The translations under genes were made by a program, and so were the position numbers. Shown here one piece after another: positions 30,183 to 51,123 of a stretch of DNA of 64,000 nt. This stretch comes from Daphnia pulex. Taxonomy: Eukaryota > Arthropoda > Branchiopoda > Diplostraca > Daphniidae. Where the stretch lies: contig NC_060018.1 in the NCBI RefSeq assembly GCF_021134715.1, positions 12,851,501-12,915,500 of the forward strand. Direction: 5' to 3'. How positions within the stretch are numbered: the first letter of the stretch is position 1; every line of letters begins with the position of its first letter. A model generated the notes under the pieces. The model did not search any database, was not told where the DNA came from, and saw only the letters and a list, made by a program, of their open reading frames with translations.

Positions 30183-31325
30183 TAGTGATGTTTCGTTAGT
30201 GCTTTTTCTAAACGTTAGCGTTATCCGTTAAGTTAACGATGTCTCATTTTTTCACGTTCGTTAACGCCGTTAATTAACGCCGTTAAAAATGTCTCCGTTA
30301 ACGAAAATTCGACGTTATTTTTACCGTTATTTAATAAAAAAATTGCACTATCAAATCACTGAAATCAGTCACGGTCTTGATTACTTATATTTAAATTGCT
30401 GCTGGCGTTGAACAATGTCACAATGAAGCAATGATCAACTAAAAAAAACAGAAACTGCGGATTAAATAAACGCACAGACAAAAGAAAAAAAAACAAGTTC
30501 CAACTAAAAAAGTAAAGGCCTCAATAAATCCTTATTGCAAGTGAGGAAGACTTTTGCGGCCAAAACTTCTTCCGCCGTCCTATTTTTGTGTCCTAGACAG
30601 TGCCATCCGGCAATGGAAAATTCGCGTTCAGATGATGCCGAAGAAACTGGTATAACCAGTAAATTATAGGCCATTTTGGATAATTAGGGGAAACGACCAG
30701 ACAAATCCTTCCAGTAAGAGATCACATCTTGAACTGGTGGATCCTTAGAAGGATCAAATTCATGACTTGCAAAGTGGAAGTTGTCTAAAAGTTCAGTTTC
30801 AATGCAGTCGAGGGAAGTGGCTAGAAGGTAGGAGCAGTCGAAATCAGGATCTCTTTAATCTGTCATGAAATTAAATCTTCTTTCGAGATCTTCTAACATC
30901 GCAGATGCCACGCTTATTCACCGTCAACAGGAGCATCAGAGTCTGAATCTGACATTAAAGATTTACACTCTGATTCTAGTTGTTTCCCTACTCTACTTAT
31001 ACAGTTTCGTTTGCCACGTTTTGAAAGCAAAAAAAAACCTCAGAGAAGCTAAGAAGACTACTGCTCACTGTCATTGGCTATTTAAATTCGTTTTCATAGT
31101 CAACCTACTACAGTAAAATGTTGGAAGCGCGCAAAAAATACAAATTTCATTTTGAAAAATCCAAAAATTTCATATTTGGCAGCGCTGTTAAAAACAAAAA
31201 TAACGTCTGAAAATAACGTCTGAAAAATGCCAAACGTTAGCGTTATCCGTTAAGTTAACGAACCCCAAAAAAGGTCCGTTAACGGACTTTTCACGTTATC
31301 CGTTATCGTTAACGAAACATCACTA
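30183..31325. mobile_element. hAT-superfamily DNA transposon, non-autonomous relic, with 8-bp target duplication
   Basis: The ends are inverted repeats starting TAGTGATGTTTCGTTA on the left and finishing as its complement on the right. Immediately outside both ends is the same 8-base word GTAGCCAG (30175-30182 and 31326-31333), which is the hAT target-site duplication length. The 1143-bp body carries the decayed end of a hAT transposase on the reverse strand. A 30-base sequence, identical and in the same orientation, lies near each end (30210-30239 and 31232-31261), with further CGTTATCCGTTA-like words near the termini, as expected for subterminal transposase-binding repeats. Confidence 0.92.
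30520..30860 (-). pseudogene. hAT transposase C-terminal dimerisation domain, decayed
   Basis: Reading the reverse strand gives SSASSEREFSIAG followed by a segment with NRTAEEVLAAKVFLTCN, the hallmark of the hAT C-terminal dimerisation domain. An upstream piece in the same frame (FDPSKDPPVQDVISYW) leads into it, but an in-frame stop interrupts between SGRFP and LSKMAYN. The DDE catalytic part is absent from the element, so it cannot encode an active enzyme by itself. Confidence 0.88.
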
Positions 31326-34115
31326 GTAGCCAGTTCTCACTGAAGTTCGTCTGCCACCACTCACCAGCATTGGCAGCATTTTTTTGCAAACGTGCAAAGT
31401 TTCAATCATGAGATGGTTTGATTGTAGTGAGCATTTGTCTAATGAGTTCACGCAAAAGTTTGCTTTTTTTTTTCTTCTCGATTGCCTCACGAAAGCAGTC
31501 AAATCAAGGAAATGTTTATATTCAATGGGCCCAGATCACATCAAGGCATGGATGGATGGTTTCACCCATATTGGACTTTTCAATCTTTGTTTGCTCAAAC
31601 AAAAAAAGGGCTTCTAAAAGATTTTGTTCTGTGTGTTTTTATTATGTTAATAACCCCCAGCACTTAGTTCGAATGCAGCAAGTCTAAGCTTTTCAAGTTC
31701 AGTGTGACCGTTGCAGTTACCTCTGCTAACAAAGAATCCAATGATATGTACATAGAACAATTACTTAATAGAGTGAACTCAAGCAATCAGTGACACAACA
31801 CCCACCTACGTGAACTGCCAGACACAATATTTGCATAGAATAAGAACAAACTCTAATCTCCTGTCGACTTCAGTCTACATGGGGATTGGCATGGATTACA
31901 GTACCACATCTTCTATCACCTATCTCTTATAATGTGAACAGCAAGATTATTTTGTAAGTATTACTTAAGCAAAGCTTGTGATTGTGTGCTTAATAATAAG
32001 GAAAAAGTAGTAGTGAGATAACTAAAGATAACTATTTCAGGATAATTTAACGAAATTCCTTATTTCTCTTTTCAGACTCTTGAATGTTTGGGTCACGAAT
32101 GACATGGAAGGTAATGCTGGTTCATTACAAATGGCATCTTTGCCAAAAATATTGACATCCGGGAATAAATTGGCTTTGGTGATGAAACTCTTGCCATAAG
32201 GAAAGTAATACATGACACTACTTGAGCCCCCAACACATGAACTGTGCTGCAGTTTTAACCAAGATGGAATTTGAAAAGCCCTTTTATCACGAGCTCTACT
32301 ATCTGAGGCAGTTGACTAACGGTACAGTGACAAACGAATGCATAAGGTCAAAATTTGTGGGAATTCGAAGAACTGGAGTAGGTGAAGGGAGTCCTGAAGA
32401 AATCAAATGCCGCGTCATTTTCATCGTTCACGCCGATCCGCGTCCAGGGCTTTTCATTTGGTGACAGTTGGGATTATTGTTTCGTCGACGAAGACGTTCA
32501 CAACGGACCAGCACAAAATCTCGCTGAGAGAGTTGGTTCACTCGCCTACTGACCAACCTTTGTTGATCTTTATCGAAAAATATCGATTGATTTTTTGAAA
32601 AGTCATGAATGCTCGAAATGCTCGTTCCAGTTTTTCAAACAAGTCTGCTCACGTTTAATCTTAGAGCAGATCTACAGTGGTGTGCGAACGGCCTTGGGAC
32701 TATAAAGCAATCAACTCATGATTGAATTATGGAAAGGTAAGCTGAATGTTAGTTTTGTACAGGGAAATGTTCACAGTTTATTTTTATTAATAGTGTTTGC
32801 AGACATAACTAATGAAGAACCAAATTAACTGAAACGCGGTCAATGCCGTAAGCGACGCCAGCTTCGATTCGCCCTCGTACGACGTCTGGCGTATTTCTTA
32901 TAAGCCTTCAACAAAGCCATGGTGTTATTTCGTCTATGCCAACTATCCTGACCGATCGATGTCACTCAACTCATCCTATTTCCCTTATCGAAATGCCATT
33001 TGGTGTCCGCACTTGCATGCAACCCTTCAGTCACTTATTGGCGACTTTTGACATCCATCTTGGACCATAACGGTGGTTTCTTGATCGTGTCGCTAAAAGC
33101 GAAGATGAAAACGCATAGGAAATGAAAGAAGTATGACTAAAACTTTTGTTGAATGTTTGATTAATTAGTTTTAATTGCGTTTTTTTAAAGGCCTATTTCT
33201 AGATTTGTTTATGCTTCGTACATTTACATAATTGTTTTGAAAAAAAAATTACCGTTTTCGAAGATGAGTTATTATGTGGATAACATTTTTGAAAAACCGA
33301 AGGGCTTTTTCCTCGAGTGGGGAACATTTGGGACCGTGCTTAGGGCCGGATGCGAGCAACTGGAAATTTTTCACGGAAGCGGCGGCTCATTTATCATTCG
33401 CGTCGTTGGCTTCTTCAGATACCTTCAGTTCTCAAGGAGAATTCATCAGCCATTTTCGTCCATTGAAGTATAAACTTTTTCGTCTGGTGTACTAATCTTG
33501 CAATTACTAAAAATTCTGGTTCACTTTTAGGTGACTTCGTCTCTGTAATCGTGTTGACAACTTGCCTCAAGGCTTCTTTGGCTGGGCTTTAAAATCGTGA
33601 AATGTGTCTTGCTATTTGATACCGAGTAGAACATCAAACTTTCGTATTTGCAAGTTTCGACGGTCAAGAGAATGTTTGAGAAACTCAATTTAGTTGTCAT
33701 TTCGATTATTCGGCCAAGAGTTGCTACTGGAAATCAAGGAAGAATATTTGTCCACCAAGCCAATTTATACGCATTGCTTAAGAGCACGTCAACTTGTGAT
33801 TCTCCTAAAGAACTTGCTAAAATTGTAAGAGAATGTCCTACAAATAATTCCACTTTACTGGCCGCCGATGTAGGGCGTTGCTCAAGTTGCTCTCATCTGC
33901 TGTACTACAGAAGAAGAAGAGATCCTGGTCTTCCATTTAATTGCTCCAAACGCCGAAACAATCGAATTACTATTTCAAGATCACCAAAATTTCGAACAAG
34001 TGTCCGAGCTCTTCATCCAACAGACAAGAAAAGCGTAACTTAGACTACTGTGGCCTTTTCACATGTTGAATAGCCCAGTGAAGAATGGACACGAAAGTCA
34101 CGAGGTCGCAAAACT
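31326..34115 (+). pseudogene. Decayed coding-like sequence of unknown origin
   Basis: Several short stretches read like protein but are broken by stops and shifts. Examples on the + strand are 32221-32461, about 32855-33050 (containing FDSPSYDVWRISYKPSTKPW), 33274-33495 (SNWKFFTEAAAHLSFASLAS) and 33648-34043. Codon-like periodicity and balanced residue use suggest one or more former genes, but I do not recognise the family and cannot join the pieces. There are no transposon ends. It abuts the outer edge of the palindrome on one side and the hAT element on the other. Confidence 0.4.
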
Positions 34116-34389
34116 TTGTTGATTTTATTCAACCGTTTAATGAGAAGCTTTGATTTGTATTTTTTTATATTAATAATTTATCTTTTTTTTAGATTTTCTT
34201 CTCCGACCGCAGGTGCAAGGATTATGTGTTTGAAACTTAGAAAAGTTTGCAGTAGAATATTTTTAAAAAAGCCGACAGTCCTTCAAACGGTTCGAAATGG
34301 AATTCATTCACCGAAGAAACGAGTCAAATGACTCAAATGTGGTATTTTTAAAGTGACTAAAATTTAAGCCATTATCATTTATGATTTGA

Positions 34390-34783
34390 TATGTGTTTTG
34401 ATATTAGTTTTTGTAGACCCATTCCCAGCAACGTCAACCTGCAGAAAGAAAAAGGCCAGTTTCTACGACCTTGACGCTCGAAGGTCACGGAGATCATTAC
34501 GTAAAACGTATCATGCAGTGGTGTAGAGGTTGGGTGAGAATGACACGTGTTGCTTCATTATCTAAAAGGTACAATAGCCGCAAGTGTAAGCCATTTGGTA
34601 TTCATTTTGATATTGGTTATTGTAGACCCATCCCCGGCAAAGTCACCTGCAGAAAGAAAGGCCAGTTTGCATTTCAATCGAAGGTCATGGATATCATTAC
34701 GGCAAAGGTGTCAGGCATTGGTGTAGAGGTTGGGTAAGAACGGGACGTTTTGCTTCATTATCAAAAAGGTAAAATAGCCATTA
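34390..34783 (+). repeat. Two diverged tandem units of about 205 bases upstream of a TATA promoter (left arm)
   Basis: Unit 1 (from about 34390) and unit 2 (from about 34598) share TGTAGACCCATyCCC, CACCTGCAGAAAGAAA-like, GGTGTAGAGGTTGGGT and TTGCTTCATTATCwAAAAGGTA blocks in the same order. The mirror copy lies at 46252-46645 in the right arm. Placement directly upstream of the promoter suggests duplicated regulatory sequence. Confidence 0.75.
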
Positions 34784-34812
34784 GGCTTAAGAGGAGGGGT
34801 GAGAAAAAATTG

Positions 34813-34847
34813 TATAAAAGGCGAAAGAAAAGTTGGCAGGGATCAGT
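34813..34847 (+). promoter_or_regulatory. TATA box and initiator of the YYT-repeat gene (left arm)
   Basis: TATAAAAG at 34813-34820 is followed 30 bases later by TCAGT (34843-34847), the arthropod initiator. The spacing is canonical. Downstream lies the conserved leader that recurs before each gene copy. The same pair occurs on the reverse strand at about 46188-46222. Confidence 0.75.
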
Positions 34848-35790
34848 CGAGTGAGCATCTCCGACACGGCAACAACTCCATATTTCGTCGTAATATCAGT
34901 TCGCAATCACGGGTAAATGTTCATTTTTATTTCGAGTCGTAAATCTATTCTATCTTGTCATTAGTTGTTGATACGACTAGTTACCTTCGAAAAATAATTT
35001 CCGATTGTTTATTCCATAGCTAATTATGGTATTGTGTTGCTGTTGGGTGCTGTATCGTTGATGTCGACCACGAGAGAAAATCTTTCAAAAGGAAAGAGAA
35101 AAGGCAACATAAGTCAATCGAGTGAGCATCTCCGACCCGGCAACAACTGCATTCTTCGTCGTAATACCAGGTCGCAATCACGGGTAAATAATCTGTATTT
35201 CTACGTGGAATTTTGTATCACTTTCCATTTTTTCTATTTGATAATATGTCCGTTATTGTTGAATATTTAATATTGTCTAGTTAACTATGCCGTCGTGCTG
35301 CTATTGGTTGTTGTATCGTTGATGGCTGGGTCGAACACTGGTGTACCGATGTCTCCTGGATAAGGCGGATACCAAACCGCAGCGCCGCCGCCTTACTACA
35401 CAACAACATACGCAACGACCAGTTACTACACCGAGGTTGCACAGTTGGGTTTACAGTTAAACCACCAAGGATTCAGATTATTACACCACAACTTGTGCTG
35501 CTCCCCGAGCTACACTACCAAAGCGCAGAGTACTACACCGAAGCTCCTAAGTACTACACCACCGAGGCACCTACTGAGACTACGCAACTACGTATGCTGC
35601 CCCAACCTACGACACCGAGGCTCCAGCTTATTACACCACTAAAGCTGTCGAATACTACACTGGAGCGCCCAAGTACGATAGAAGTCGGTCAAGTGAGCTT
35701 CTCCGACACGCAACACGGCAGCCCCGAAGTTTCGAATAATCTTCGTTTCAAACAGTGGAACGACAAAGAGTGAGGGTGAGCTCTTTATTA
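34843..35790 (+). pseudogene. Broken copies of a YYT-repeat structural protein gene, left arm, outer group
   Basis: Two head-to-tail gene beginnings are visible. Each has a leader (34848-34910, 35110-35185) ending CGCAATCACGGGTAAAT, then an intron, then a second exon encoding a hydrophobic signal-peptide-like start (from about 35020 IVLLLGAVSLM; from about 35283 YAVVLLLVVVSLMAGSNTGV). The second continues into Pro/Tyr/Thr-rich repeats of the type YYTTTYATTSYYTE. In-frame stops (in MSPG-stop-GGY) and frame shifts break the repeats until 35690, where a copy of the leader sequence is fused in. Proteins with such Tyr-Thr-Glu-Ala-Pro repeats look like secreted cuticle or egg-case structural proteins; function is inferred from composition only. 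Confidence 0.6.
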
Positions 35791-35880
35791 TTGTAATTTT
35801 TTTGAACATGTACTAATGACTTGTTTTCCTTCCTTGTCTGTTTTTCGGATGAATTTACTGCAATCCCGTCTAATTGAATA

Positions 35881-36915
35881 GGAAAGATAACGGCGGCGTA
35901 GCATTCGTACGTGTACACCGCGTCGTTAAACTTGACATTGTCGGACGGAAAGCCGAACTTGACGATGGCCGTGCCATAAGCCTACGACAAGTGCCTTATT
36001 GCCACAGGTAAACATTTTATGCCAAACGAAATTCATCTTTTAAAGTCTCAATGATTGCTCCTTTATGGAATGTTAAACAACTTTGATAATCTTCCTGCTT
36101 GATAGTATCTGAGAGTCTACTTAAACTGCTAGCAATTTATTTCTGTGGTTACGAATCACTAAAAATGGCCTTTATTTTCTTGTTAGGTGGTAAACAAAAA
36201 TCTTTTCCAATCCCTGAGCGGTGCCCTCAAAGATGTCCACGAGCACGTAATGCTGTTCCGCAACATCGATGGCGGTAACATAGGCCGAGTCCTCCCTAAA
36301 TACTTGAGCCATTGGACTTCCGAGAAGGTGAAAGCTCAAGGTGTCAATGTGTTGCCCAAAGCTAATGTTGAGGGTGCAATTTTGGAAGACTACAAGGTCG
36401 CATTGACCTTTAACGATGGTCAAAAGGTAAACAGTTATTTCAGTACATGTTTTAGCGATGTCAGTTAAAATCTAGAATTCATTTCATCAGATTTAAACTG
36501 AACATGTCATCGCTGTTGTCGGTTGGGACGCAAACTTCACGGATTTGGCTGTCGTTTCTGGTTTGGAAATAGATTCCAATTTTGGTGGTTATCGAGTCAA
36601 TACCGAGCTTGAAGCACGATCGAACGTCTGGTTGGTAAGAATTCTTGAACATTTTATTTCATATAAATTGTAATACTTGTGACTAAAACTTAACCAACAT
36701 TGACTGCTCTGATGTTGTTGTTAGATAGTATATGAAGTTCCTGTTAAATTATATTCTAATTATTGGGTATGGACTTTATTTTTTATTAGGCTGGATATGT
36801 TGCGTTCGTTTGTGATATCAAATTGGGTCGTTGGCGTACGGAACATCATCACTTTGCTGTTGTATCAGGGCGATTGCTGGAGAGAACAATACTGGCAACG
36901 AAACATGGATGAACA
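35881..36915 (+). pseudogene. Apoptosis-inducing-factor-like oxidoreductase fragment with introns (left arm)
   Basis: Four pieces separated by intron-like gaps match the middle of mitochondrial AIF (AIFM1). 35881-36008 ends with a shifted YDKCLIATG-type signature. 36187-36426 reads RNIDGGNIGRVLPKYLSHWT and on to LTFNDGQK. 36490-36633 reads GLEIDSNFGGYRVNTELEAR. 36790-36910 reads CDIKLGRWRTEHHHFAVVSG, where the family has its second FAD-contacting motif. The N-terminal FAD domain start and the C-terminal domain are missing, and there are stops and shifts. Retained exon/intron order shows a DNA-level duplication, not a retrocopy. Confidence 0.8.
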
Positions 36916-36924
36916 ACTGCAGTG

Positions 36925-37885
36925 CACTGTCATCAAGTTCATTCTTCGTCGTATTATCAGTACGCAATCGGGTAAATATTCTGTTTCATGGAGTTTGCAT
37001 CAATTATTTGTTTTTATCTGTTAATGTACCATATTGAATATTAATGTTCAAATCAATTACCGCCTATTTGATTGTAGTGTCGTGCTGTTGCCGTTTGTCG
37101 TATCGTTGAAGGTTGGGTCGATCACTGGTGTACTCATGGCTCCTGGGTATGGCGGATACCAAAGCACCACGCCGCCACCTTGCTACACAACGAAAACATT
37201 CGCACCAACCGGTTACTACACTGAGGGCCACAATTACTACACCACCAAGGCTCCAGAGTATTACACCGCAGCTAATGCTGCCCCGAGCTAAATCACCAAA
37301 GATCCTGAGTACTACACCGAGGCTCCCAAATACTACACCACCAAGTCACCGGAGTACTACACGTATGTTGCCCCAGCTTATACACCGAGGCTCCAAGTAT
37401 CACTCAGTTCCTAGCTACTACACCGAGGCTCCAACTTATTACACCTCCAAAGCGGCTGAATACTACACCGAGCCGCCCAAGTACTACACCACCAAGGCTC
37501 CAGAGTATTACACTACAACTTATGCTTCCCCGAGCCACTATACCGAAGCCCCGAAGTATTACTCTGCCTCAAGCTACACAACTACAACTCGGCTTACTAC
37601 ACAGCGGCTGCTGCTCCTTCGTACTACGTTGAACCGGAATACTACACCGAGGCTCCAGTTTACTACACCACAACCTACGCTACAACTAGCTACTACACCG
37701 AGGCACCTAAGTACTACGCTACCAAGGCACCTGAGTATTATACCAATACTTACGCTGCTCCGACCAGCTACACCGAAGCTCCGAACTATTACTCTATTCC
37801 GAGTTACTACGCCACTAAGGCACCTGAATATTACACCACACCCTACGCTTATTCAACTTACTACAGGGACGTTTCTAAATACTAG
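36925..37885 (+). pseudogene. YYT-repeat structural protein gene copy, left arm, inner group
   Basis: The AIF-like fragment runs straight into a third copy of the YYT leader (TTCTTCGTCGTATTATCAG to CGGGTAAAT, 36938-36975). An intron follows, and then the second exon from about 37078: SVVLLPFVVSLKVGSITGVL and GYGGYQSTTPPPCYTTK. Repeats follow of the form YYTEAPKYYTTKAPEYYTT. An in-frame stop at about 37289 and at least two compensating shifts occur. The end is intact, with YSTYYRDVSKY and a stop at about 37885. Signal-peptide-like start plus Tyr-rich repeats suggest a secreted, possibly tyrosine-crosslinked matrix protein in its intact relatives. Confidence 0.7.
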
Positions 37886-38384
37886 AGTCGAATTTTCAAT
37901 TTTTAGTAATCATGTTCAGATTTGTCGGTCATATCTTAATAGTTACTAGTCTTTAATGAGAAAATATTTTTTTTTATCTGGTTAATCATTTTGTACGACT
38001 CTTCTTGCCACCTAAAAGCCTTTGACATTGCGACGTTTTCTTATTTTTATTTGACCTTTCCTATTTCGCATGTTGGAGGTGAATATTTCTCTAGTCGTTC
38101 TGCATTCCGACATATTCTAGTGTTTGGACAAAAGAGTTGCAGATAGTGTTTGGTTTCTCATAGAAGTTTTATTTGCAGGGTCTGGAGTTGATCAGTCACT
38201 TGCATATAACTTATGTAGAACTTCAAAGTTGTAAAAAATATACAAGTCGTGAACTAAACATTTTTTTATTATAAGTTATGAGACACAACAAACTAAAACA
38301 TTAAAAGGAATTGCTTTATTATCCCACCTCCACCCACAATTCCACCACATTTTACAATTACAAACATACATACACTTACGTTAA

Positions 38385-38689
38385 CCCGTTAGCTGCCACG
38401 CCATACAACCCGTAGGTTGTACTCTACTACTCTACGCGCCACATCTGAAGGATCCATGGCCAAGGTGGGACTTGCCATTGCTGACAAGTCCGGGCTGACA
38501 CGGTGACAGGAGAATCCATCACCGTATCGACAAGGGGGAAGTCCCTATGGTGCATTGCCTAACAGGCTTGCCTTGCGGCAAATTTTGGGCTTGGCGACTC
38601 TCCGACTACGCGGCATGAAAACCACGAGGCCGAACAGCGCGGCCCGTGCGAAGGAGCTAGGGGAGAACAAAGGCGTGGCAGACAACGGG
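38385..38689. mobile_element. piggyBac-like MITE flanked by TTAA (left arm)
   Basis: The 305-base element begins CCCGTTAGCTGCCACGCC and ends GGCGTGGCAGACAACGGG, imperfect inverted repeats of about 18 bases. Both sides carry TTAA (38381-38384 and 38690-38693), the piggyBac target. It has no coding capacity and is GC-richer than its surroundings. Confidence 0.82.
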
Positions 38690-38956
38690 TTAACTAACAC
38701 AAACGAACACATATTACCAACAACAAATGATGATCCGCGCTGACACTTTGGAGATACCGGCGACGTTATGGTGTCCATCTTCTCGAAATTTCCTCTGCAT
38801 TACCTGAATAAAGAGAAAACAATTCTTATTTACTGACATGCCAATAAAAGTTACATAATACAGAAAGAACAATAATCAGGTTTTCTAGCTCAAAGATTTA
38901 AATATGCAATGCTTTAAAGTTTAAATCAAGCTTGCAATGTTGAGAACTGTAAACAG

Positions 38957-39344
38957 AACAAAGCTCACTTGCTAGTCTTTAAAAAAAATTCCGGAAGTAT
39001 ACCGGAAGTAACCACAGCGCCTCAACCATTGAGCTGTCGTCAAATTAAACCACATATTCGTGATCCCCATAAAATTTGGGGTCGATTAGGTGTGATTTAA
39101 ACGAAATCCAAAATTTGGCCAAAATCGAGAATTTTCCTGAACTATAGTTCAGGAAAATTCTTGAAACCGGAAGTACGCGTACGTAAAAAACAGAACATGA
39201 ACTTTACCACAAATTTTACGAGGATCACGAATATGTGGTTCTTTTGTGCGTCAGATCAATATTTACTAAACTACTGACAGAAATGAGAAAACCGGAAGTA
39301 GAAAAAAATACACATTTTTAAAAATCTACCAAGTGAGCTTTGTT
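38957..39344. mobile_element. Foldback MITE-like element (left arm)
   Basis: Ends are the perfect inverted pair AACAAAGCTCACTTG (38957-38971) and CAAGTGAGCTTTGTT (39330-39344). Nested pairs lie inside: ACCACATATTCGTGATCC near 39050 pairs with its complement near 39223, and around 39129-39160 there is a perfect 32-base palindrome centred on CTATAG. CCGGAAGT words recur four times. It would fold into a multi-stem hairpin. A target duplication is not evident. Confidence 0.65.
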
Positions 39345-40497
39345 ATGGGAATAGTTATCGTTAGTTATCACTAAATATTTCATTAAAATAACTGCCAATA
39401 AATGTTCAAAAAGATGTGCAAAATAACTCAAACTGACTGTTGACAGCTGCAAATTTTCAAAAAGCCATCTAGCGTTAGAAAAAAGAAACGTCCAAGTAAA
39501 ACTTTGTTTGTGCGCAAGAAGGGCCTGATTTTTGAATTATTACACAGACACAGAGTTTAACGCAACTAGATTATTAGTAGATAATCTACGAAAGTAAGTC
39601 AATTGTCGGGTACCTGGGCATAATCCCGTGGTGAGTAACTGCAGGTGTGTAACAGCTAACAGCAAAGGGTAGCGACCACTGAAGTGTTCCAACTCGTCGG
39701 TGAAGTAAGACAAGTTGTAGCAGCAAAAGTAGTGAAGCTAGATGAGTGTACGTCGGGAAGATAAGGATGGAGCAGAACGTTGCTGGATGTCCCACTTCCT
39801 TCATGGACAAAGGTCAGCATTGGCTTAAGGATCTATTACGTGCTATGTAAAAAAATGTATTGCATTAATGAATTGAAAATATAACAGTTAATAAAGCATT
39901 TCAATCCTTACCTTTACTAACAAGCACACTGAAGTTTTAATGATAAAAAACCGCAAAAATGGAAATCACAGCAACCAACAGCCTTACTCCTCAGGTTGAG
40001 GTAAATTTCCTGATGCTAAAGAAAGTGTCATGAAGTATTGCAGTAGCGTGGTGATAGGTTATATTGAGGCTTACCTTTATCATATGAGTATGGTGCTGAA
40101 TTTAGTATGGCATTTGACGTGGTGTGGTTGGTGTTGTAGCAGTAATGGGGAATTACGTTGTCTCCACACATTTGTATTCCACGATATGTGAGCTTCACAA
40201 ATGAGTTTTAGGCTTTTGACAACATGATGGGTCTATTGGAGGGAAAGTGACTGAGCGCTACTAAGTCAACTTTTTGGAATGACTGACAGTATGCATCTAA
40301 AATTTGAAGAAATAAGTTGGTACAGTATAAAAATAAGGAAATTAGTTCAAGATAAACCTACATATGATACGAAGTTCAATTTGGTATATGAAATCACAGG
40401 AATATAAGTATTAATTAGCATCCAATTGTTTCGCCTATTTTGCCTCGTTTCACGATGCAAAAACAACAAGGGTGACACTAGCGACATCTGGTAATGA

Positions 40498-40538
40498 AAG
40501 ATCTCAACTCCGATAATTTGTGCAACCAACTTCAAAAC
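40498..40538. other. Asymmetric spacer at the palindrome centre
   Basis: These 41 bases (beginning AAGATCTCAACTCCG) are the only non-symmetric part between the arms. The bordering bases pair: TGGTAATGA on the left with TCATTACCA on the right. A short asymmetric spacer is what lets a long inverted repeat survive in a genome or clone better than a perfect palindrome. Confidence 0.85.
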
Positions 40539-41690
40539 TCATTACCAGATGTCGCTAGCGTCGCCTTTGTTGTTTTTGCATCGTGAAACGAGGCAAAATA
40601 GGCGAAACAATTGGATGCTAATTAATTCTTATATTCCTGTGATTTCATATACCAAATTGAACTTCGTATCATATGTAGGTTTATCTTCACCTAATTTCCT
40701 TATTTTTATACTGTACCAACTTCTTTCTTCAAATTTTAGATGCATACTGTCAGTCATTCCAAAAAGTTGACTTAGCGCTCAGTCACTTTCCATCTAATAG
40801 ACCCATCATGTTGTCAAAAGCCTAAAACTAATGTGTGAAACTCACATATCGTGGAATACAAATGTGTGGAGACAAGGTATTTCCCCATTACTGCTACCAC
40901 ACCAACCACACCAAACCAACCGCCTTACTAAATTCAGCACCATTCACCCATATAATAAAGGTAAGCATCAATATAACCTATCGTCACGCTACTGCAATAC
41001 TTCATGACACTTTCTTTAACTTCAGGAAATTTACCTCAACCTAAGGAGTAAGGCTGTTGGTTGCTGTGATTTCCATTTTTGCGGTTTTTTATCATTAAAA
41101 CTTCAGTGTGCTTGTTAGTAAAGGTAAAGATTGAAATGCTTTATTAACTGTTATATTTTCAATTCATTAATGCAATACATTTTTTTACATAGCACGTAAT
41201 AGATCCTTAAGCCAATGCTGACCTTTGTCCATGAAGGAAGTGGGACATCCAGCAACGTTCTGCTCCATCCTTATCTTCCCGACGTACACTCATCTAGCTT
41301 CACTACTTTTGCTGCTACAACTTGTCTTACTTCACCGACGAGTTGGAACACTTCAGTGGTCGCTACCCTTTGCTGTTAGCTGTTACACACCTGCAGTTAC
41401 TCACCACGGGATTATGCCCAGGTACCCGACAATTGACTTACTTTCGTAGATTATCTACTAATAATCTAGTTGCGTTAAACTCTGTGTCTGTGTAATAATT
41501 CAAAAATCAGGCCCTTCTTGCGCACAAACAAAGTTTTACTTGGACGTTTCTTTTTTCTAACGCTAGATGGCTTTTTGAAAATTTGCAGCTGTCAACAGTC
41601 AGTTTGAGTTATTTTGCACATCTTTTTGAACATTTATTGGCAGTTATTTTAATGAAATATTTAGTGATAACTAACGATAACTATTCCCAT

Positions 41691-42080
41691 AACAAAGCTC
41701 ACTTGGTAGATTTTTAAAAATGTGTATTTTTTTCTACTTCCGGTTTTCTCATTTCTGTCAGTAGTTTAGTAAATATTGATCTGACGCACAAAAGAACCAC
41801 ATATTCGTGATCCTCGTAAAATTTGTGGTAAAGTTCATGTTCTGTTTTTTACGTATTCGTACTTCCGGTTTCGAAAATTTTCCTGAACTATAGTTCAGGA
41901 AAATTCTCGATTTTGGCCAAATTTTGGATTTCGTTTAAATCACACCTAATCGACCCCAAATTTTATGGGGATCACGAATATGTGGTTTAATTTGACGACA
42001 GCTCAATGGTTGAGGCGCTGTGGTTACTTCCGGTATACTTCCGGAATTTTTTTTTAAAGACTAGCAAGTGAGCTTTGTTC
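41691..42080. mobile_element. Foldback MITE-like element (right arm copy)
   Basis: This is the mirror of the left-arm element, with the same terminal pair and central palindrome. It differs by a few substitutions, e.g. ACGTATTCGTAC here against the complement of ACGCGTACG there, so it is an independent genomic copy rather than the same reads. Confidence 0.65.
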
Positions 42081-42346
42081 TGTTTACAGTTCTCAACATT
42101 GCAAGCTTGATTTAAACTTTAAAACATTGCATATTTAAATCTTTGAGCTAGAAAACCTGATTATTGTTCTTTCTGTATTATGTAACTTTTATTGGCATGT
42201 CAGTAAATAAGAATTGTTTTCTCTTTATTCAGGTAATGCAGAAGAGACATCGAGAAGATGGACACCATAACGTCGCCGGTATCTCCAAAGTGTCAGCGCT
42301 GATCATCATTTGTTGTTGGTAATATGTGTTCGTTTGTGTTAGTTAA

Positions 42347-42651
42347 CCCGTTGTCTGCCACGCCTTTGTTCTCCCCTAGCTCCTTCGCACGGGCCGCGCT
42401 GTTCGGCCTCGTGGTTTTCATGCCGCGGGGTCGGAGAGTCGCCAAGCCCAAAATTTGCCGCAAGGCAAGCCTGTTAGGCAATGCACCATAGGGACTTCCC
42501 CCTTGTCGATACGGTGATGGATTCTCCTGTCACCGTGTCAGCCCGGACTTGTCAGCAATGGCAAGTCCCACCTTGGCCATGGATCCTTCAGACGTGGCGC
42601 GTAGAGTAGTAGAGTACAGCCTACGGGTTGTATGGCGTGGCAGCCAACGGG
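42347..42651. mobile_element. piggyBac-like MITE flanked by TTAA (right arm copy)
   Basis: Mirror copy of the 305-base TTAA element, with TTAA at 42343-42346 and 42652-42655. A few bases differ from the left copy, for example CCGCGGGGTCGG here against the complement of CCGACTACGCGG there, and GTTGGCTG in place of GTTAGCTG. Confidence 0.82.
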
Positions 42652-43149
42652 TTAACATAAGTGTATGTATGTTTGTGATTGTAAAATGTGGTGGAATTGT
42701 GGGTGGAGGTGGGACAATAAAGCAATTCCTTTTAATGTTTTTGTTTGCTGTGTCTCATAAATTATAATAAAAAATGTTTAGTTCACGACTTGTATATTTT
42801 TTACAACTTTGAAATTCTACATAAGTTATATGCAAGTGACTGATCAACTCCAGACCCTGCAAATAAACTTCTATGAGAAACCAAACACTATCTACAACTC
42901 TTTTGTCCAAACACTAGAATATGTCGGAATGCAGAGCGACTAGAGAAATATTCACCTCCAACATGCGAAATAGGAAAGGTCAAATAAAAATAAGAAAACG
43001 TCGCAATGTCAAAGGCTTTTAGGTGGCAAGAAGAGTCGTACAAAATGATTAACCAGATAAAAAAAAATATTTTCTCATTAAAGACTAGTAACTATTAAGA
43101 TATGACCGACAAATCTGAACATGATTACTAAAAATTGAAAATTCGACTC

Positions 43150-44110
43150 TAGTATTTAGAAACGTCCCTGTAGTAAGTTGAATAAGCGTAGGGTGTGGTG
43201 TAATATTCAGGTGCCTTAGTGGCGTAGTAACTCGGAATAGAGTAATAGTTCGGAGCTTCGGTGTAGCTGGTCGGAGCAGCGTAAGTATTGGTATAATACT
43301 CAGGTGCCTTGGTAGCGTAGTACTTAGGTGCCTCGGTGTAGTAGCTAGTTGTAGCGTAGGTTGTGGTGTAGTAAACTGGAGCCTCGGTGTAGTATTCCGG
43401 TTCAACGTAGTACGAAGGAGCAGCAGCCGCTGTGTAGTAAGCCGAGTTGTAGTTGTGTAGCTTGAGGCAGAGTAATACTTCGGGGCTTCGGTATAGTGGC
43501 TCGGGGAAGCATAAGTTGTAGTGTAATACTCTGGAGCCTTGGTGGTGTAGTACTTGGGCGGCTCGGTGTAGTATTCAGCCGCTTTGGAGGTGTAATAAGT
43601 TGGAGCCTCGGTGTAGTAGCTAGGAACTGAGTGATACTTGGAGCCTCGGTGTATAAGCTGGGGCAACATACGTGTAGTACTCCGGTGACTTGGTGGTGTA
43701 GTATTTGGGAGCCTCGGTGTAGTACTCAGGATCTTTGGTGATTTAGCTCGGGGCAGCATTAGCTGCGGTGTAATACTCTGGAGCCTTGGTGGTGTAGTAA
43801 TTGTGGCCCTCAGTGTAGTAACCGGTTGGTGCGAATGTTTTCGTTGTGTAGCAAGGTGGCGGCGTGGTGCTTTGGTATCCGCCATACCCAGGAGCCATGA
43901 GTACACCAGTGATCGACCCAACCTTCAACGATACGACAAACGGCAACAGCACGACACTACAATCAAATAGGCGGTAATTGATTTGAACATTAATATTCAA
44001 TATGGTACATTAACAGATAAAAACAAATAATTGATGCAAACTCCATGAAACAGAATATTTACCCGATTGCGTACTGATAATACGACGAAGAATGAACTTG
44101 ATGACAGTGC
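43150..44110 (-). pseudogene. YYT-repeat structural protein gene copy, right arm, inner group
   Basis: Reverse-strand mirror of the left inner copy, with the same in-frame stop and shifts. The 278-residue frame over its shifted repeats (43085-43921) is identical in translation to the left copy, so both copies share their inactivating changes and the breaks predate the palindrome or were copied between arms. Confidence 0.7.
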
Positions 44111-44119
44111 ACTGCAGTT

Positions 44120-45154
44120 GTTCATCCATGTTTCGTTGCCAGTATTGTTCTCTCCAGCAATCGCCCTGATACAACAGCAAAGTGATGATGTTCCGTACGC
44201 CAACGACCCAATTTGATATCACAAACGAACGCAACATATCCAGCCTAATAAAAAATAAAGTCCATACCCAATAATTAGAATATAATTTAACAGGAACTTC
44301 ATATACTATCTAACAACAACATCAGAGCAGTCAATGTTGGTTAAGTTTTAGTCACAAGTATTACAATTTATATGAAATAAAATGTTCAAGAATTCTTACC
44401 AACCAGACGTTCGATCGTGCTTCAAGCTCGGTATTGACTCGATAACCACCAAAATTGGAATCTATTTCCAAACCAGAAACGACAGCCAAATCCGTGAAGT
44501 TTGCGTCCCAACCGACAACAGCGATGACATGTTCAGTTTAAATCTGATGAAATGAATTCTAGATTTTAACTGACATCGCTAAAACATGTACTGAAATAAC
44601 TGTTTACCTTTTGACCATCGTTAAAGGTCAATGCGACCTTGTAGTCTTCCAAAATTGCACCCTCAACATTAGCTTTGGGCAACACATTGACACCTTGAGC
44701 TTTCACCTTCTCGGAAGTCCAATGGCTCAAGTATTTAGGGAGGACTCGGCCTATGTTACCGCCATCGATGTTGCGGAACAGCATTACGTGCTCGTGGACA
44801 TCTTTGAGGGCACCGCTCAGGGATTGGAAAAGATTTTTGTTTACCACCTAACAAGAAAATAAAGGCCATTTTTAGTGATTCGTAACCACAGAAATAAATT
44901 GCTAGCAGTTTAAGTAGACTCTCAGATACTATCAAGCAGGAAGATTATCAAAGTTGTTTAACATTCCATAAAGGAGCAATCATTGAGACTTTAAAAGATG
45001 AATTTCGTTTGGCATAAAATGTTTACCTGTGGCAATAAGGCACTTGTCGTAGGCTTATGGCACGGCCATCGTCAAGTTCGGCTTTCCGTCCGACAATGTC
45101 AAGTTTAACGACGCGGTGTACACGTACGAATGCTACGCCGCCGTTATCTTTCCT
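44120..45154 (-). pseudogene. Apoptosis-inducing-factor-like oxidoreductase fragment (right arm)
   Basis: Mirror of the left AIF-like fragment. The largest block, 44566-44847, translates identically to 36187-36468. The same exon pieces and the same fusion to the YYT leader are present. Confidence 0.8.
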
Positions 45155-45244
45155 ATTCAATTAGACGGGATTGCAGTAAATTCATCCGAAAAACAGACAA
45201 GGAAGGAAAACAAGTCATTAGTACATGTTCAAAAAAATTACAAT

Positions 45245-46192
45245 AATAAAGAGCTCACCCTCACTCTTTGTCGTTCCACTGTTTGAAACGAAGATTATTC
45301 GAAACTTCGGGGCTGCCGTGTTGCGTGTCGGAGAAGCTCACTTGACCGACTTCTATCGTACTTGGGCGCTCCAGTGTAGTATTCGACAGCTTTAGTGGTG
45401 TAATAAGCTGGAGCCTCGGTGTCGTAGGTTGGGGCAGCATACGTAGTTGCGTAGTCTCAGTAGGTGCCTCGGTGGTGTAGTACTTAGGAGCTTCGGTGTA
45501 GTACTCTGCGCTTTGGTAGTGTAGCTCGGGGAGCAGCACAAGTTGTGGTGTAATAATCTGAATCCTTGGTGGTTTAACTGTAAACCCAACTGTGCAACCT
45601 CGGTGTAGTAACTGGTCGTTGCGTATGTTGTTGTGTAGTAAGGCGGCGGCGCTGCGGTTTGGTATCCGCCTTATCCAGGAGACATCGGTACACCAGTGTT
45701 CGACCCAGCCATCAACGATACAACAACCAATAGCAGCACGACGGCATAGTTAACTAGACAATATTAAATATTCAACAATAACGGACATATTATCAAATAG
45801 AAAAAATGGAAAGTGATACAAAATTCCACGTAGAAATACAGATTATTTACCCGTGATTGCGACCTGGTATTACGACGAAGAATGCAGTTGTTGCCGGGTC
45901 GGAGATGCTCACTCGATTGACTTATGTTGCCTTTTCTCTTTCCTTTTGAAAGATTTTCTCTCGTGGTCGACATCAACGATACAGCACCCAACAGCAACAC
46001 AATACCATAATTAGCTATGGAATAAACAATCGGAAATTATTTTTCGAAGGTAACTAGTCGTATCAACAACTAATGACAAGATAGAATAGATTTACGACTC
46101 GAAATAAAAATGAACATTTACCCGTGATTGCGAACTGATATTACGACGAAATATGGAGTTGTTGCCGTGTCGGAGATGCTCACTCGACTGAT
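45245..46192 (-). pseudogene. Broken YYT-repeat gene copies, right arm, outer group
   Basis: Mirror of the left outer group: two leader and second-exon beginnings and a shifted repeat tract. Frames 45261-45539, 45392-45589 and 45764-46000 equal their left partners residue for residue. The TATA/initiator pair sits just outside at 46188-46222, so the two arms' promoters point toward the centre. Confidence 0.6.
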
Positions 46193-46222
46193 CCCTGCCA
46201 ACTTTTCTTTCGCCTTTTATAC
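46188..46222 (-). promoter_or_regulatory. TATA box and initiator, right arm
   Basis: Reverse complement of the left-arm promoter: CTTTTATA at about 46215-46222 and ACTGA at about 46188-46192, same spacing. It would start transcription toward the palindrome centre. Confidence 0.7.
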
Positions 46223-47415
46223 AATTTTTTCTCACCCCTCCTCTTAAGCCTAATGGCTATTTTACCTTTTTGATAATGAAGCAAAACGTCCCGTTCTTAC
46301 CCAACCTCTACACCAATGCCTGACACCTTTGCCGTAATGATATCCATGACCTTCGATTGAAATGCAAACTGGCCTTTCTTTCTGCAGGTGACTTTGCCGG
46401 GGATGGGTCTACAATAACCAATATCAAAATGAATACCAAATGGCTTACACTTGCGGCTATTGTACCTTTTAGATAATGAAGCAACACGTGTCATTCTCAC
46501 CCAACCTCTACACCACTGCATGATACGTTTTACGTAATGATCTCCGTGACCTTCGAGCGTCAAGGTCGTAGAAACTGGCCTTTTTCTTTCTGCAGGTTGA
46601 CGTTGCTGGGAATGGGTCTACAAAAACTAATATCAAAACACATATCAAATCATAAATGATAATGGCTTAAATTTTAGTCACTTTAAAAATACCACATTTG
46701 AGTCATTTGACTCGTTTCTTCGGTGAATGAATTCCATTTCGAACCGTTTGAAGGACTGTCGGCTTTTTTAAAAATATTCTACTGCAAACTTTTCTAAGTT
46801 TCAAACACAAAATCCTTGCACCTGCGGTCGGAGAAGAAAATCTAAAAAAAAGATAAATTATTAATATAAAAAAATACAAATCAAAGCTTCTCATTAAACG
46901 GTTGAATAAAATCAACAAAATAAGAAATTAAGACGCAATTGCTTAAGCTCGATAGACTGTCAGAGTTCGTCCGCTACGTTCACAACGCATAACTAAAAGA
47001 TTTACTTCAATGATCCTAAGAAAACACCCAGGAGAAGCGGGGGGGGGGGGATCGTATTTCCACAACTGATTTAGAAGTATCTAAAACGCAAATCAAATGA
47101 TTGATTGACAATACCTGAACTCTAGGACTATGGATTTTGTAACCGCAAATCGACAATGAGATCCTACTAGCAGCTATTTAATAACTTAAATGAATAACAT
47201 TTACAGGAGCTACCTGCTACCCTTACCCTGCCTTTTACATTGACAGGTCTATCATCTTGAATATTTGATTACCGCCAGAACCTATCGCGTGTCGTTTGAT
47301 GCTGCATCAACAAAAGTGAAAAAAAAATTCACCCTGTTACATGACCAACGCGTTTCTGCCACAATAAAGTATGCGCAAGTAAAACAATGTTTTGACACTC
47401 GCTTTGTTTTCGTTG

Positions 47416-47679
47416 CTAAGCAGTAAAATGTGTTGAAATTTTGGTTTTGCTCTTCACACCGAATGTAGACGGAAATGACTCGGCTCGGATATATAAAGGA
47501 TCGTTGGCTGCAAACAAATTCACATTATTTTCTGCAAAAGCTTCATGTCGTATAGTCGCATGTCTAGCATTACCTTTTTTAATATATTTTTTTTTCATTT
47601 GGTTTAGCGTTTCGTTCAGTGACTCCTTGTCACCAAAACCCCTCAATAGGAAACACCTCCGCGTCATCTGGTAATGCAA
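47416..47679 (-). CDS. Possible small unrecognised ORF
   Basis: An 87-residue frame containing RRCFLLRGFGDKESLNETL and a Lys-rich middle. Residue use is protein-like, but there is no family match I can name, no intron evidence and no clear promoter on that strand. It may be chance or part of a decayed gene. Confidence 0.2.
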   Translation of the reverse strand: MHYQMTRRCFLLRGFGDKESLNETLNQMKKKYIKKGNARHATIRHEAFAENNVNLFAANDPLYIRAESFPSTFGVKSKTKISTHFTA

Positions 47680-49744
47680 ACAATTGAATTAATAGCTTTA
47701 GCAATTTTACTAACGTGTAATTACGTACCCTCGTTTAAGCCTCGATGGAATGGCAACCCTAAAGGTTTCAGGATTGTCCGGGCCGCTCAAAGGAGGCGAT
47801 GATCTAGATTTAAATTCTTATTTTAACAGACCGTCCGGTTGAAACTGCAGCCAGTCAAGCAGTGGAAGACGCTGCACGACTGACTCGACCAGGGAGATTA
47901 CCCGGCCATGGTTAAGAGAAACCGAAAAAAGAGCGAAGAGAGCTGAGGAGCAGTTATTATGAGAGCAGTGTATCATGGTAGGCTTCCAGCTTAGACTCAT
48001 GACCCTCCAACAGATTTCATCGAATCATGCGCCTTGCAAGTCCGCGTAGCAACCTCTCCTCAGTTTCACCAATGGATCAAGTCTATGGAACGGCAGCAAA
48101 CGATTAAACTGAAAAAAAGAATAGAGATCTTAATTGAAAGTCAATAACTGAACAAAACATCAAGCATTACCTTAACGCAGGTACAGGTAGCAAGAGACGA
48201 CATCGACAAAATGCAGGCGATAAAACAAGACCGACAGCCATCAGGCAACATTGACTATTTAAGCCAACTTTTCAACACAGCATACGCATGGACACCAACA
48301 TAGGCAAATGACACATTTTTAGTGTGTTGTTGAACTGCAAGTCTGCACGAGCTCCATTTCAGAGCATCTCTCAACTGGAAAGGGACTGCAAAACCACTGC
48401 TGTACACCAAACAGCAACACCATAAACAGCTTAAGCATCACAATGACCATGAACTCCTACTCCTACAAAGCAAAAGAACATCAATGAACCAAAAACATTT
48501 TGAAATGTGAAAAAGGGTACCGATAATAAAATTTACTTAGTTTAAAATTGGTAATTAATTTAAAATGAGTAATAAATTTAAATTGAAAAAGAAACCAGGG
48601 AGGAATTCTGTTCATCTACTTCCAATATGTTATAAAAACTTGGTAAAATTGAGTGGGAATTTTTGTTCTAGATTGATTGGAAGAAAATCGAAAAAAAAAA
48701 CTCAGTGGAAGCTGACCAACAATGTGGCTATCTTTGAATGGAAAAAATTATTTGGAAGGAAGAAATATTACCCCTAATTTTCTACATCACATCAGAGGTT
48801 AACTTGTCAATTGAATACAAAATTAAAAAAAAAAAAAACACAAGACTTCCCAAGTTACAACCAATAACATCAATAAAATTACCTGCAGTGACACTTGGGA
48901 TAACACCAGCTAGATAAACTGCATGCAGCAGCTGCAGCTCAACTTGACTCGATCACATCTTTCACCAGATGGCTGCAACAAAACCATGTTGATGATATAA
49001 CAGCCATGAAGCTCAGACTTTGTCATGTTCTCAATTTCTGCAACAGTTGAGCAATGGGATCTCCTCCTCCGACCTGAACATCAACTAATAAAACCTATTG
49101 CATTATTGCAGGGAAATTGATCAATAGCATTACTTTACTAGCTCTGAAGTGTTTCTGCACGAGATGAACCGTACAGCCGTATAGGTACAGCGAACAATGG
49201 CCGACATTTGACAGCAGTTTCCACCCTCGTCGTCACATTATTTGGCCAAGTAAAATAATATGCCAGATTGCCTGTAAATTCAGAGAGAAACGTCTAAGAT
49301 TAATTAAATTTAAGAAATCCAAACTATTATTACAATTTCATGGCTGAAAATGTAGATCGCAATTCCGTAATTAATTTGGAATACACTTTCAGTCAGCGTC
49401 TCTGAAACAAATGGCAAATATTTCGTCCTCACGAAGACACTCGCGTCACCTGGTGGTTGGAGGACAATCCAATTTAGCCACCTACCGATAGGCAAAAGAT
49501 TCCCTCACGATTACGACGTTTGACTGTACGCAACGGATGGAATGATGGATTGCTTTCCGAACTATGTTTCCGTTATTCCGAAGCTTAACATCACGACTCA
49601 CGAGAAATGAATAACCAGATACACATCACATACAAATAAATCTGATGAGGCGATCCGACACACTACGGATCAAATCACAAACAACGTTGCACAGAAATAA
49701 ACTGGAATTTACTTGTGAATTCACCGTAATTTTCATGGGAACTC

Positions 49745-49965
49745 CACCGACAATAGAACCCCAATATTTAAAAAAATAATAATAAAAAAAAAAAATTTTG
49801 TATGCGACAGTAGAACTGTAGAACTCCAAAGACATAAGAACTCATTTTTTAAATATTATTAAAAATACCCGACAATAGAACTCCAATAAATTCTTTAACT
49901 ATTTTCATGATTAACAATAGAACTCATAGAATTTTAAATGTTCGACAATAGAACTCCACTTTTGG
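49745..49965. repeat. Irregularly spaced repeat of CGACAATAGAACTCCA
   Basis: Near-identical 13-16-base words recur in the same orientation at about 49748, 49804, 49869, 49914 and 49943, separated by unrelated AT-rich sequence of 25-60 bases. Examples are CGACAATAGAACCCCA, CGACAGTAGAACTGTAG, CGACAATAGAACTCCA and AACAATAGAACTCA. It is not a simple tandem array. Confidence 0.7.
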
Positions 49966-50401: not shown

Positions 50402-51123
50402 TCAGTCGCTTATCTCTTCTTCGTCACTGAAATAGGAGCTTGGTTTGAATTTCTTCTTTCGGACGTTTGTTGCGGATAACGACGTTGATTGCTCTTGCAT
50501 CGATCGTTTTTGCTGTTCGTAGCGAATGGCAGCACCGAGAGAATCGTCTTGATCTCCTAATTCGCTCCCTTCTTTTTCGTGTTTTCTTGACCCTCTCTTT
50601 GGCGGTTCGCGACTTCCCAATGCGTTACTAGGGCACTGATAACTCAGATGTCCTTCCTGGCCACATTCGAAACACCGCGATTTGTCCTCGTAGGTTTTTT
50701 TCTGAGTTGCAAACTCTTCCGTCCGACCGTTGTCTTTGGCAATTGAGGATTTCAAAATCCGACCAAACATCTGAGGAAAATTAATAAAATTAAAATGTGT
50801 TCCATTATGCCATCGATTAGAAAACCCATACTACATACCTCCTTTTCATTGGTCTGCTGGATGCAGTTGGATGCCTCTTCTTGAGTTTTGTAAACAATGA
50901 AAGCCACGCCTTTGCTTTTTCTTGTCAATCGGTGCTTTACGATGGTTACTCTTTAATTCAAAGTGGATGATTAGGAATCTAGTACAGTCTCAATGATAAT
51001 ATTGAAATTTTACTTAATCACGGTGCCATATTGCCCGAAAATCTGGTGGATGTCATTGTTGGTTAGAGAGAATGGGAAATTTGAGACGTACACTGTGCAA
51101 TCTCGAGTCTGGCTCGCCTCCAT
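50402..51123 (-). CDS. Zcrb1: ZCRB1: CCHC zinc knuckle and RRM protein of the U11/U12 snRNP
   Basis: Three exons (51014-51123, 50839-50950, 50402-50770) encode about 196 residues. An RRM covers about residues 8-80, with RNP2-like [10 protein letters not shown] and RNP1-like [10 protein letters not shown] single zinc knuckle [14 protein letters not shown] lies at about 107-120, and a charged tail ends [19 protein letters not shown] knuckle and acidic tail in this order are the ZCRB1 (U11/U12-31K) pattern, a component of the minor spliceosome. The start is the ATG of [12 protein letters not shown]; an AG acceptor immediately upstream (TAGGTACATGG) suggests a 5' UTR intron. Confidence 0.94.

Follow-up and report, generated by a model that had tools for sequence, protein, structure and literature searches.

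A palindrome of damaged YYT-repeat genes

A 64,000-nucleotide stretch of the Daphnia pulex genome (contig C2, positions 12851501-12915500, analysed whole and called the window hereafter) contains a single long inverted repeat, each arm of which carries broken genes for a tyrosine/threonine-repeat (YYT) protein. The assembly comprises 133,188,837 bases in 13 contigs, with COX1 carried by contig C13 (15,333 bp), and other loci are named here by contig and position in megabases (Mb). Self-BLAST of the window places the repeat at 34115-46919, at 98.8% identity over 12,818 alignment columns, a figure that includes both arms, and its E value of 0 excludes a chance origin. Gapped alignment and 55 arm substitutions bear out the view of an earlier sequence-only reading that this 12.8-kb palindrome is real and made of two distinct copies, and the inner arm ends at 40497 and 40539 leave the 41-base centre that it had described. 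It had also held that paired positions keep a constant coordinate sum with almost no indels, which stands in part: indels are few but present, and the sum shifts from 81034 at the outer arm ends to 81036 at the inner. Aligned globally and with the spacer counted in, the two halves show 6332 identities, 64 substitutions and seven gap runs totalling 13 gap columns, with nine of the substitutions and two of the gap runs in the spacer. Because small indels shift the coordinate sum, an ungapped comparison of the arms at a sum of 81035 returns 3766 mismatches over 6402 positions.

The differences between the arms are unevenly distributed. Of the 55 substitutions over 6378 aligned bases, 54 fall in the 2475 bases that lie less than 2.5 kb from the axis (binomial P ~2e-21), and the outer 3.9 kb differs at one site (1/3903). 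This weakly homogenised zone was missing from the sequence-only account, as was the frequent arrangement of YYT genes in inverted pairs described below.

YYT-repeat proteins are typical of Daphnia. Each window arm holds two broken copies of such a gene, scattered over several frames, with segments like YYTEAPKYYTTKAPEYYTT (Table 1). The claim that both arms carry the same damaged genes is thus upheld, down to identical open-frame pieces in copy 2. When open frames between stops were run against Pfam, no family reached its cut-off in ten arm open reading frames (ORFs), the only hit being a sub-threshold Xin repeat. The YYT repeats likewise lie in pieces over several frames in the other copies examined, so that neither there nor in the window do the arms hold intact genes; at C7 2.08, open frames of 548 and 557 amino acids (aa) flank, at distances of about 2-4 kb, an axis homologous to that of the window.

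A protein search with one 96-aa YYT segment gave at least 179 matches (150 of 2132 candidates scored). We typed 104 of the 150 rows, one per gene place, omitting 46 extra repeat matches in places already typed, and counted as an inverted pair two places on opposite strands that are separated by under 20 kb and whose bit scores differ by no more than 2.5, applying the same rule to one strand for direct pairs. There are at least 24 inverted pairs, 22 of them convergent, against a single direct pair, under a rule that favours homogenised pairs but does so equally for both orientations. Inverted pairing is thus frequent in the YYT gene family. Of the 24 pairs, 11 are palindromes with an axis examined here, and the window copy is such a pair with both sides broken.

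Table 1. Features of the palindrome and its flanks in the window (positions within the window)
Feature	Position	Strand	Basis or remark
Left outer breakpoint	34100..34115	.	Different flank joined to arm
Left palindrome arm, 6.38 kb	34115..40497	+	Self-BLAST, gapped alignment; truncated on outer side
Broken YYT-repeat gene, copy 1, left arm	35285..35770	+	No Pfam match
Broken YYT-repeat gene, copy 2, left arm	37025..37949	+	No Pfam match; repeats over more than one frame
Axis-proximal zone, left arm	38098..40497	+	Patchy, apparently incompletely homogenised; 54 substitutions/2475 aligned bases versus right arm
Spacer at axis, 41 bp	40498..40538	.	By-eye, piecewise match to C7 0.27 spacer, same orientation
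Right palindrome arm, 6.38 kb, inverted copy of left	40539..46919	-	Self-BLAST, gapped alignment
Axis-proximal zone, right arm, mirror of left	40539..42937	-	
Broken YYT-repeat gene, copy 2, right arm	43085..44009	-	Open-frame pieces same as left
Broken YYT-repeat gene, copy 1, right arm	45264..45749	-	
Outward repeat continuation past right arm	46920..49650	-	Without left counterpart
Dispersed motif array, CGACAATAGAACTCCA type	49748..49958	+	Outside right arm; also in central spacers of several sister palindromes

One axis at many loci

Numerous places in the genome match the left arm, several of them as inverted pairs (27 of 960 candidates scored), and the matches longer than 1 kb are mostly 82-95% identical, with a few at 71-79%. 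Five further palindromes on C2 and C7 were compared, together with eight loci holding at least one arm; the main arm-to-arm alignments of those five are 98.4-99.97% identical. The inner arm end maps to window positions 40489-40497 in most copies, and lies further out in C2 5.05 (right), C2 13.03 (right), C2 1.47 (right) and C4 0.26. A search with 456 bp around the window axis (40 of 250 candidates scored, the places being clustered from 100 rows) found both arms beside the axis, as tested over 0.2 kb, at no fewer than 22 of the 40 scored places, on C2, C5, C7, C8, C10 and C11. The other 18 have one arm, three of them with a short stub of the second, and at C2 1.47, which is counted as one-armed, the other arm resumes about 1.4 kb out, so that some other one-armed places may be alike. 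Two-armed axes were also seen at C8 11.03, C2 0.405, C11 3.506, C7 2.08 and five more places, and C2 12.22 has the axis with a left stub. Altogether at least 29 two-armed copies share one axis (22 from the axis search and seven more), on at least six of the 12 nuclear contigs.

The sequence-only reading had hinted at a sex chromosome or a local amplification. The window copy is instead one member of a dispersed family on a common axis, and neither a fresh amplification nor a sex-chromosome origin is supported; Daphnia has environmental sex determination, and D. pulex has 12 chromosome pairs.

Two side observations concern the arrangement of the family. The midpoints of two further convergent YYT pairs (C2:272266 and C2:2176189) have the spacer motif within about 160 bp and, judged by that motif, are probably the same axis. 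At C5:287000-362000, two small family palindromes form an inverted pair about 58 kb apart and 98.96% alike, which suggests a larger palindrome with the small ones nested inside.

Homologous spacers of about 150-250 bp, in either orientation, occupy the axis at C2 4.66, C2 5.05, C2 13.03, C7 0.27, C7 0.17 and C5 0.29. The window spacer matches parts of the one at C7 0.27 and is best read as a deletion remnant of the spacer of about 200 bp in several sister copies. The motif CGACAATAGAACTCCA occurs 842 times in the genome with at most one mismatch, against four occurrences of a reversed control, and forms small arrays at scattered places; the spacer in its long form is accordingly part of a dispersed repeat. 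A short bare axis with no array is found at C2 0.405, C2 0.904, C10 2.33, C7 10.62, C11 0.635, C11 3.30 and C8 11.03.

Palindromes produced by scaffolding errors are a known problem (PMC7953838), and a fold-back read, a missed adapter or joined haplotypes could in principle yield an inverted repeat of this kind. We consider an assembly or library artefact highly improbable, however, as arm divergence is 5% over the 0.6 kb next to the axis, the outer flanks are unlike, the spacer resembles those of other loci and the axis is common to many loci. A SMRTbell adapter was considered as the source of the 41-bp spacer and rejected on the same resemblance to spacers elsewhere.

Divergence at the axis, near-identity beyond it

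The uneven distribution of differences in the window recurs in other members of the family. Mismatches within 2.5 kb of the axis and beyond it number 54/2475 versus 1/3903 in the window, 87/1533 versus 13/5966 in C2 5.05, 58/2412 versus 4/3751 in C2 4.66, and 113/2375 versus 2/6812 in C7 0.27 (13/6846 beyond 2.5 kb under looser joining). Fifteen palindromes were measured by axis distance, 14 of them with bases on both sides of 0.6 kb, and in 11 of these 14 the divergence is higher within 0.6 kb of the axis than beyond. The change from divergent to identical comes at a variable distance, about 0.5 to 2.4 kb from the axis; read outward, mismatches run 65/565 and then 0/600 in C11 3.30, 50/564 and then 4/600 in C10 2.33, and 59/500, 44/593 and then 2/1104 in C8 11.03. 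Identity also has sharp outer edges. In C2 13.03 there are 0/4340 mismatches inside it and 19/921 outside, and in C2 5.05, 11 of the 13 distal mismatches fall within the last 466 bp. Conversion tracts should break off at the outer edges in this way, whereas a single young duplication should not. As an aside, both outer ends of the C2 13.03 palindrome fall within a 200-bp tandem unit, of which the window has about two copies inside each arm (34396-34779, mirrored at 46255-46638).

Phylogeny of the two zones separates them further. In the 369 bp beside the axis there are two sequence types, A and B. C2 5.05, C7 0.27, C5 0.29 and C5 0.36 each combine an A arm with a B arm, at 84.7-87.5% identity, whereas between loci A arms share 91.5-100%. 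In a tree of 36 such segments, including 13 palindromes with both arms, left and right are not nearest each other in nine of the 13 and group with arms of other loci; the arms are nearest each other in C7 10.62 and C11 0.635, and the window and C2 0.904 are borderline. A second tree, of 18 segments from the distal stretch 34428-35722, has the two arms nearest each other in all six palindromes, and here the close pair C2 4.66/5.05 differs by less than 1%. Arm-to-arm identity thus exceeds identity to homologous arms elsewhere, as it does in the arm search, where copies at other loci are mostly 82-95% identical. On these trees the distal arms appear more recent than the split between the loci. 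Since the axis types are common to several loci and the distal arms are nearest within their own palindrome, the axis would be older than the spread of the family.

Origin and maintenance of the family

We favour, with a probability of roughly three in four, a history in which this palindrome family derives from an inverted YYT pair with a common axis that predates its spread, and in which the arms are homogenised by gene conversion except near the axis. An inverted, tail-to-tail YYT gene pair with its flanks would have originated a single time, at a short inverted repeat, with the palindrome on this axis in place before the family spread. Copies would then have settled at many loci with ragged outer ends, spreading locally in four close pairs (C2 4.66/5.05, C7 0.17/0.27, C2 1.39/1.47 and C5 0.29/0.36) and also between chromosomes. 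Within each palindrome, arm-to-arm conversion would have kept the arms alike while roughly 0.6-2.5 kb beside the axis mostly escaped it, so that older divergence was kept there. Conversion that runs along the arms and fails at the axis would explain both the old axis and the young-looking distal arms. Near the axis the arms may fail to pair, the loop being too short; alternatively, size differences near the axis may stop conversion, and three A arms (C2 5.05, C7 0.27 and C7 0.17) do carry about 320 extra bp. In the window copy both genes would have been broken and conversion would have kept the two broken copies alike. Arm-to-arm conversion, which the sequence-only reading had already proposed, is the best inference for the process and probably right, as the distal arms are mutually nearest in six of six palindromes and the axis-proximal exception accompanies them.

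Several observations weigh against this history. Three of the 14 testable palindromes do not follow it, with C2 13.03 and C2 0.904 reversing the axis gradient and C11 3.506 divergent throughout. C2 1.47 lacks a proximal zone on one side, C7 2.08 is positive on just 110 bases beyond 0.6 kb, and C5 0.29 and C5 0.36 are near-duplicates and hence not independent. The window itself is an imperfect example: its gradient is patchy, with 29/576, 1/600, 24/1298 and 1/3904 mismatches outward (5.03, 0.17, 1.85 and 0.03%), and in the axis tree the distance between its arms (0.043) equals that to the nearest other copy. Among its 54 proximal differences, 24 are private to one arm; 26, which count in favour of this history, have each allele represented in two or more other copies, with arms counted singly, and four are neither. 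Alleles could also be mixed by conversion from one locus to another, and assembly polishing could exaggerate the identity of arms that are nearly identical.

Short inverted repeats are known to seed palindromes, and the family could instead have arisen by repeated recent inverted duplication, in which single-arm copies bearing a terminal fold-back module became palindromes independently at each locus. The distal likeness would then reflect the youth of each duplication, and the divergence near the axis would be that of the older inverted repeats of the module. A short inverted repeat is indeed present at the axis, accompanied in several copies by the dispersed motif array, and one arm only stands beside the axis at 18 of the 40 scored places. 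The single-arm ends, examined in four copies (S2_1.39, S6_0.17, S4_0.08 and S2_13.19), fall within the spacer or extend into the second arm by some 30-90 bp, however, so that these copies look like truncated palindromes and not like module-bearing ancestors. The switch from divergent to identical at differing distances, about 0.5 to 2.4 kb, and the abrupt end of identity at the outer edges of C2 13.03 and 5.05 also speak against repeated duplication, which we consider unlikely. Under the older common axis that we prefer, these four copies would have lost the second arm just past the axis, which fits the known fragility of palindromes.

The palindrome may itself be the unit of dispersal: a fixed-axis inverted gene pair that travelled in palindromic form to six chromosomes or more, with ragged outer ends, its arms renewed by a conversion that does not reach the innermost 0.6-2.5 kb beside the axis. 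This could proceed, for example, through re-insertion of extrachromosomal or hairpin DNA fragments. We put this forward tentatively and think it somewhat doubtful; if it were true, the axis would serve as a fossil record, giving the palindrome an age that does not depend on the arms.

Outer ends, flanks and neighbouring features

Homology to the other copies runs past the right arm, beyond 46919, to about 49,650, and the sequence outside this arm is homologous to the outside of most other copies. The left arm breaks off at 34115, where the adjoining sequence is not seen beside other copies; we rejected 34115 as the true end of a repeat unit, as other copies continue outward there. Outer ends are specific to each locus, and ten aligned outer ends have no common terminus. 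No target-site duplication was evident in the flanks of three palindromes, where no systematic search was made.

These ends bear on whether the palindrome is the body of a mobile element, such as a giant fold-back transposon or one with long terminal inverted repeats. Copies scattered over several contigs with differing flanks, and motif arrays both at the axis and outside, would suit such an element. Its ends should be fixed and shared, however, and they vary by locus; no transposase domain was found in the ten arm ORFs searched; and in the distal tree the members of four nearest-relative pairs share a contig at separations of 0.07-0.39 Mb, a pattern suggestive of local copying. In the same tree the nearest relatives S6_0.17 and S2_13.19 sit on different contigs, however, and that of the window copy is C2 5.05, 7.8 Mb away. 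A mobile element seems to us quite improbable, less likely than repeated duplication, and a transposon with fixed ends in particular is unsupported by outer ends that differ between loci. Spread of a pre-existing palindrome with ragged ends, followed by conversion within each copy, is the account that we retain.

Some neighbouring features deserve mention in their own right. Among six ORFs scanned, two of them from C2 12.22, a Helitron_like_N domain lies beside the axis at C2 12.22 Mb, next to a truncated arm; there, at L031:1265-3732, DUF6570 and Helitron_like_N open frames adjoin the truncated arm of the sister palindrome, and they are possibly a Helitron inserted near the axis. In the window, a 1.1-kb repeat at 30183-31326, a few kb left of the palindrome, is probably a recently active element, because its copies on C1, C2, C6, C9 and C11 are 96-100% identical. 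The segment 31393-34030, directly left of the left breakpoint, has many partial matches of about 65-83% on several contigs and is probably a member of a gene family. To the right of the motif array, an open frame at 50405-50830 encodes a CCHC zinc knuckle. Rfam gave nothing at gathering scores over 30000-51000, and ARAGORN, run with the bacterial code, found no tRNA in the window.

Significance and relation to known palindromes

Large palindromes maintained by conversion are best known from sex chromosomes, and like them the window copy has two inverted arms with kilobases of near-identity around a spacer. Here at least 29 two-armed copies occur in an animal that probably spends much of its life reproducing clonally, and as these copies share one axis they act as replicates. 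They allow one to measure how far from the centre of a palindrome conversion works and whether it runs in clonal lineages, and since mutation-accumulation lines of D. pulex exist, the rate of conversion is directly measurable. The window copy also suggests that under conversion damaged sequence is kept as faithfully as working sequence.

By title, no paper on palindromes in a Daphnia nuclear genome appeared among the matches listed, as judged from titles and abstract openings, and we found no description of a many-locus family on one axis with a replicated axis-proximal exception, although no search was aimed at the axis exception itself. A D. magna genome paper contains the word "palindrome" once (PMC10570034). 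Palindromes have been described in the clonal animals Adineta vaga and Folsomia candida, with gene conversion proposed as a benefit (PMC7953838); they are defined there by collinear annotated genes, and D. pulex was omitted from that survey of parthenogenetic animals for lack of annotation.

The human Y palindromes P1-P8 have inverted arms more than 99.9% alike through arm-to-arm gene conversion, and P6, for instance, combines an arm of about 104 kb with a spacer of about 46 kb (PMC3723533). The likeness lies in inverted arms kept alike by arm-to-arm conversion, which here is the probable process; those palindromes are on a sex chromosome, whereas the Daphnia family has arms of 6-9 kb, very short spacers and many loci on one axis. 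Inverted paralogous gene pairs in Caenorhabditis are also comparable: the identity between their arms is far above that between orthologous loci, and conversion has been proposed (PMC1803023). Both systems consist of inverted gene pairs with arm-to-arm identity above between-locus identity. In Caenorhabditis, however, one locus is followed across several species, whereas here many loci in one genome share one axis, with broken genes in the copies examined and a zone beside the axis that appears to have escaped homogenisation.

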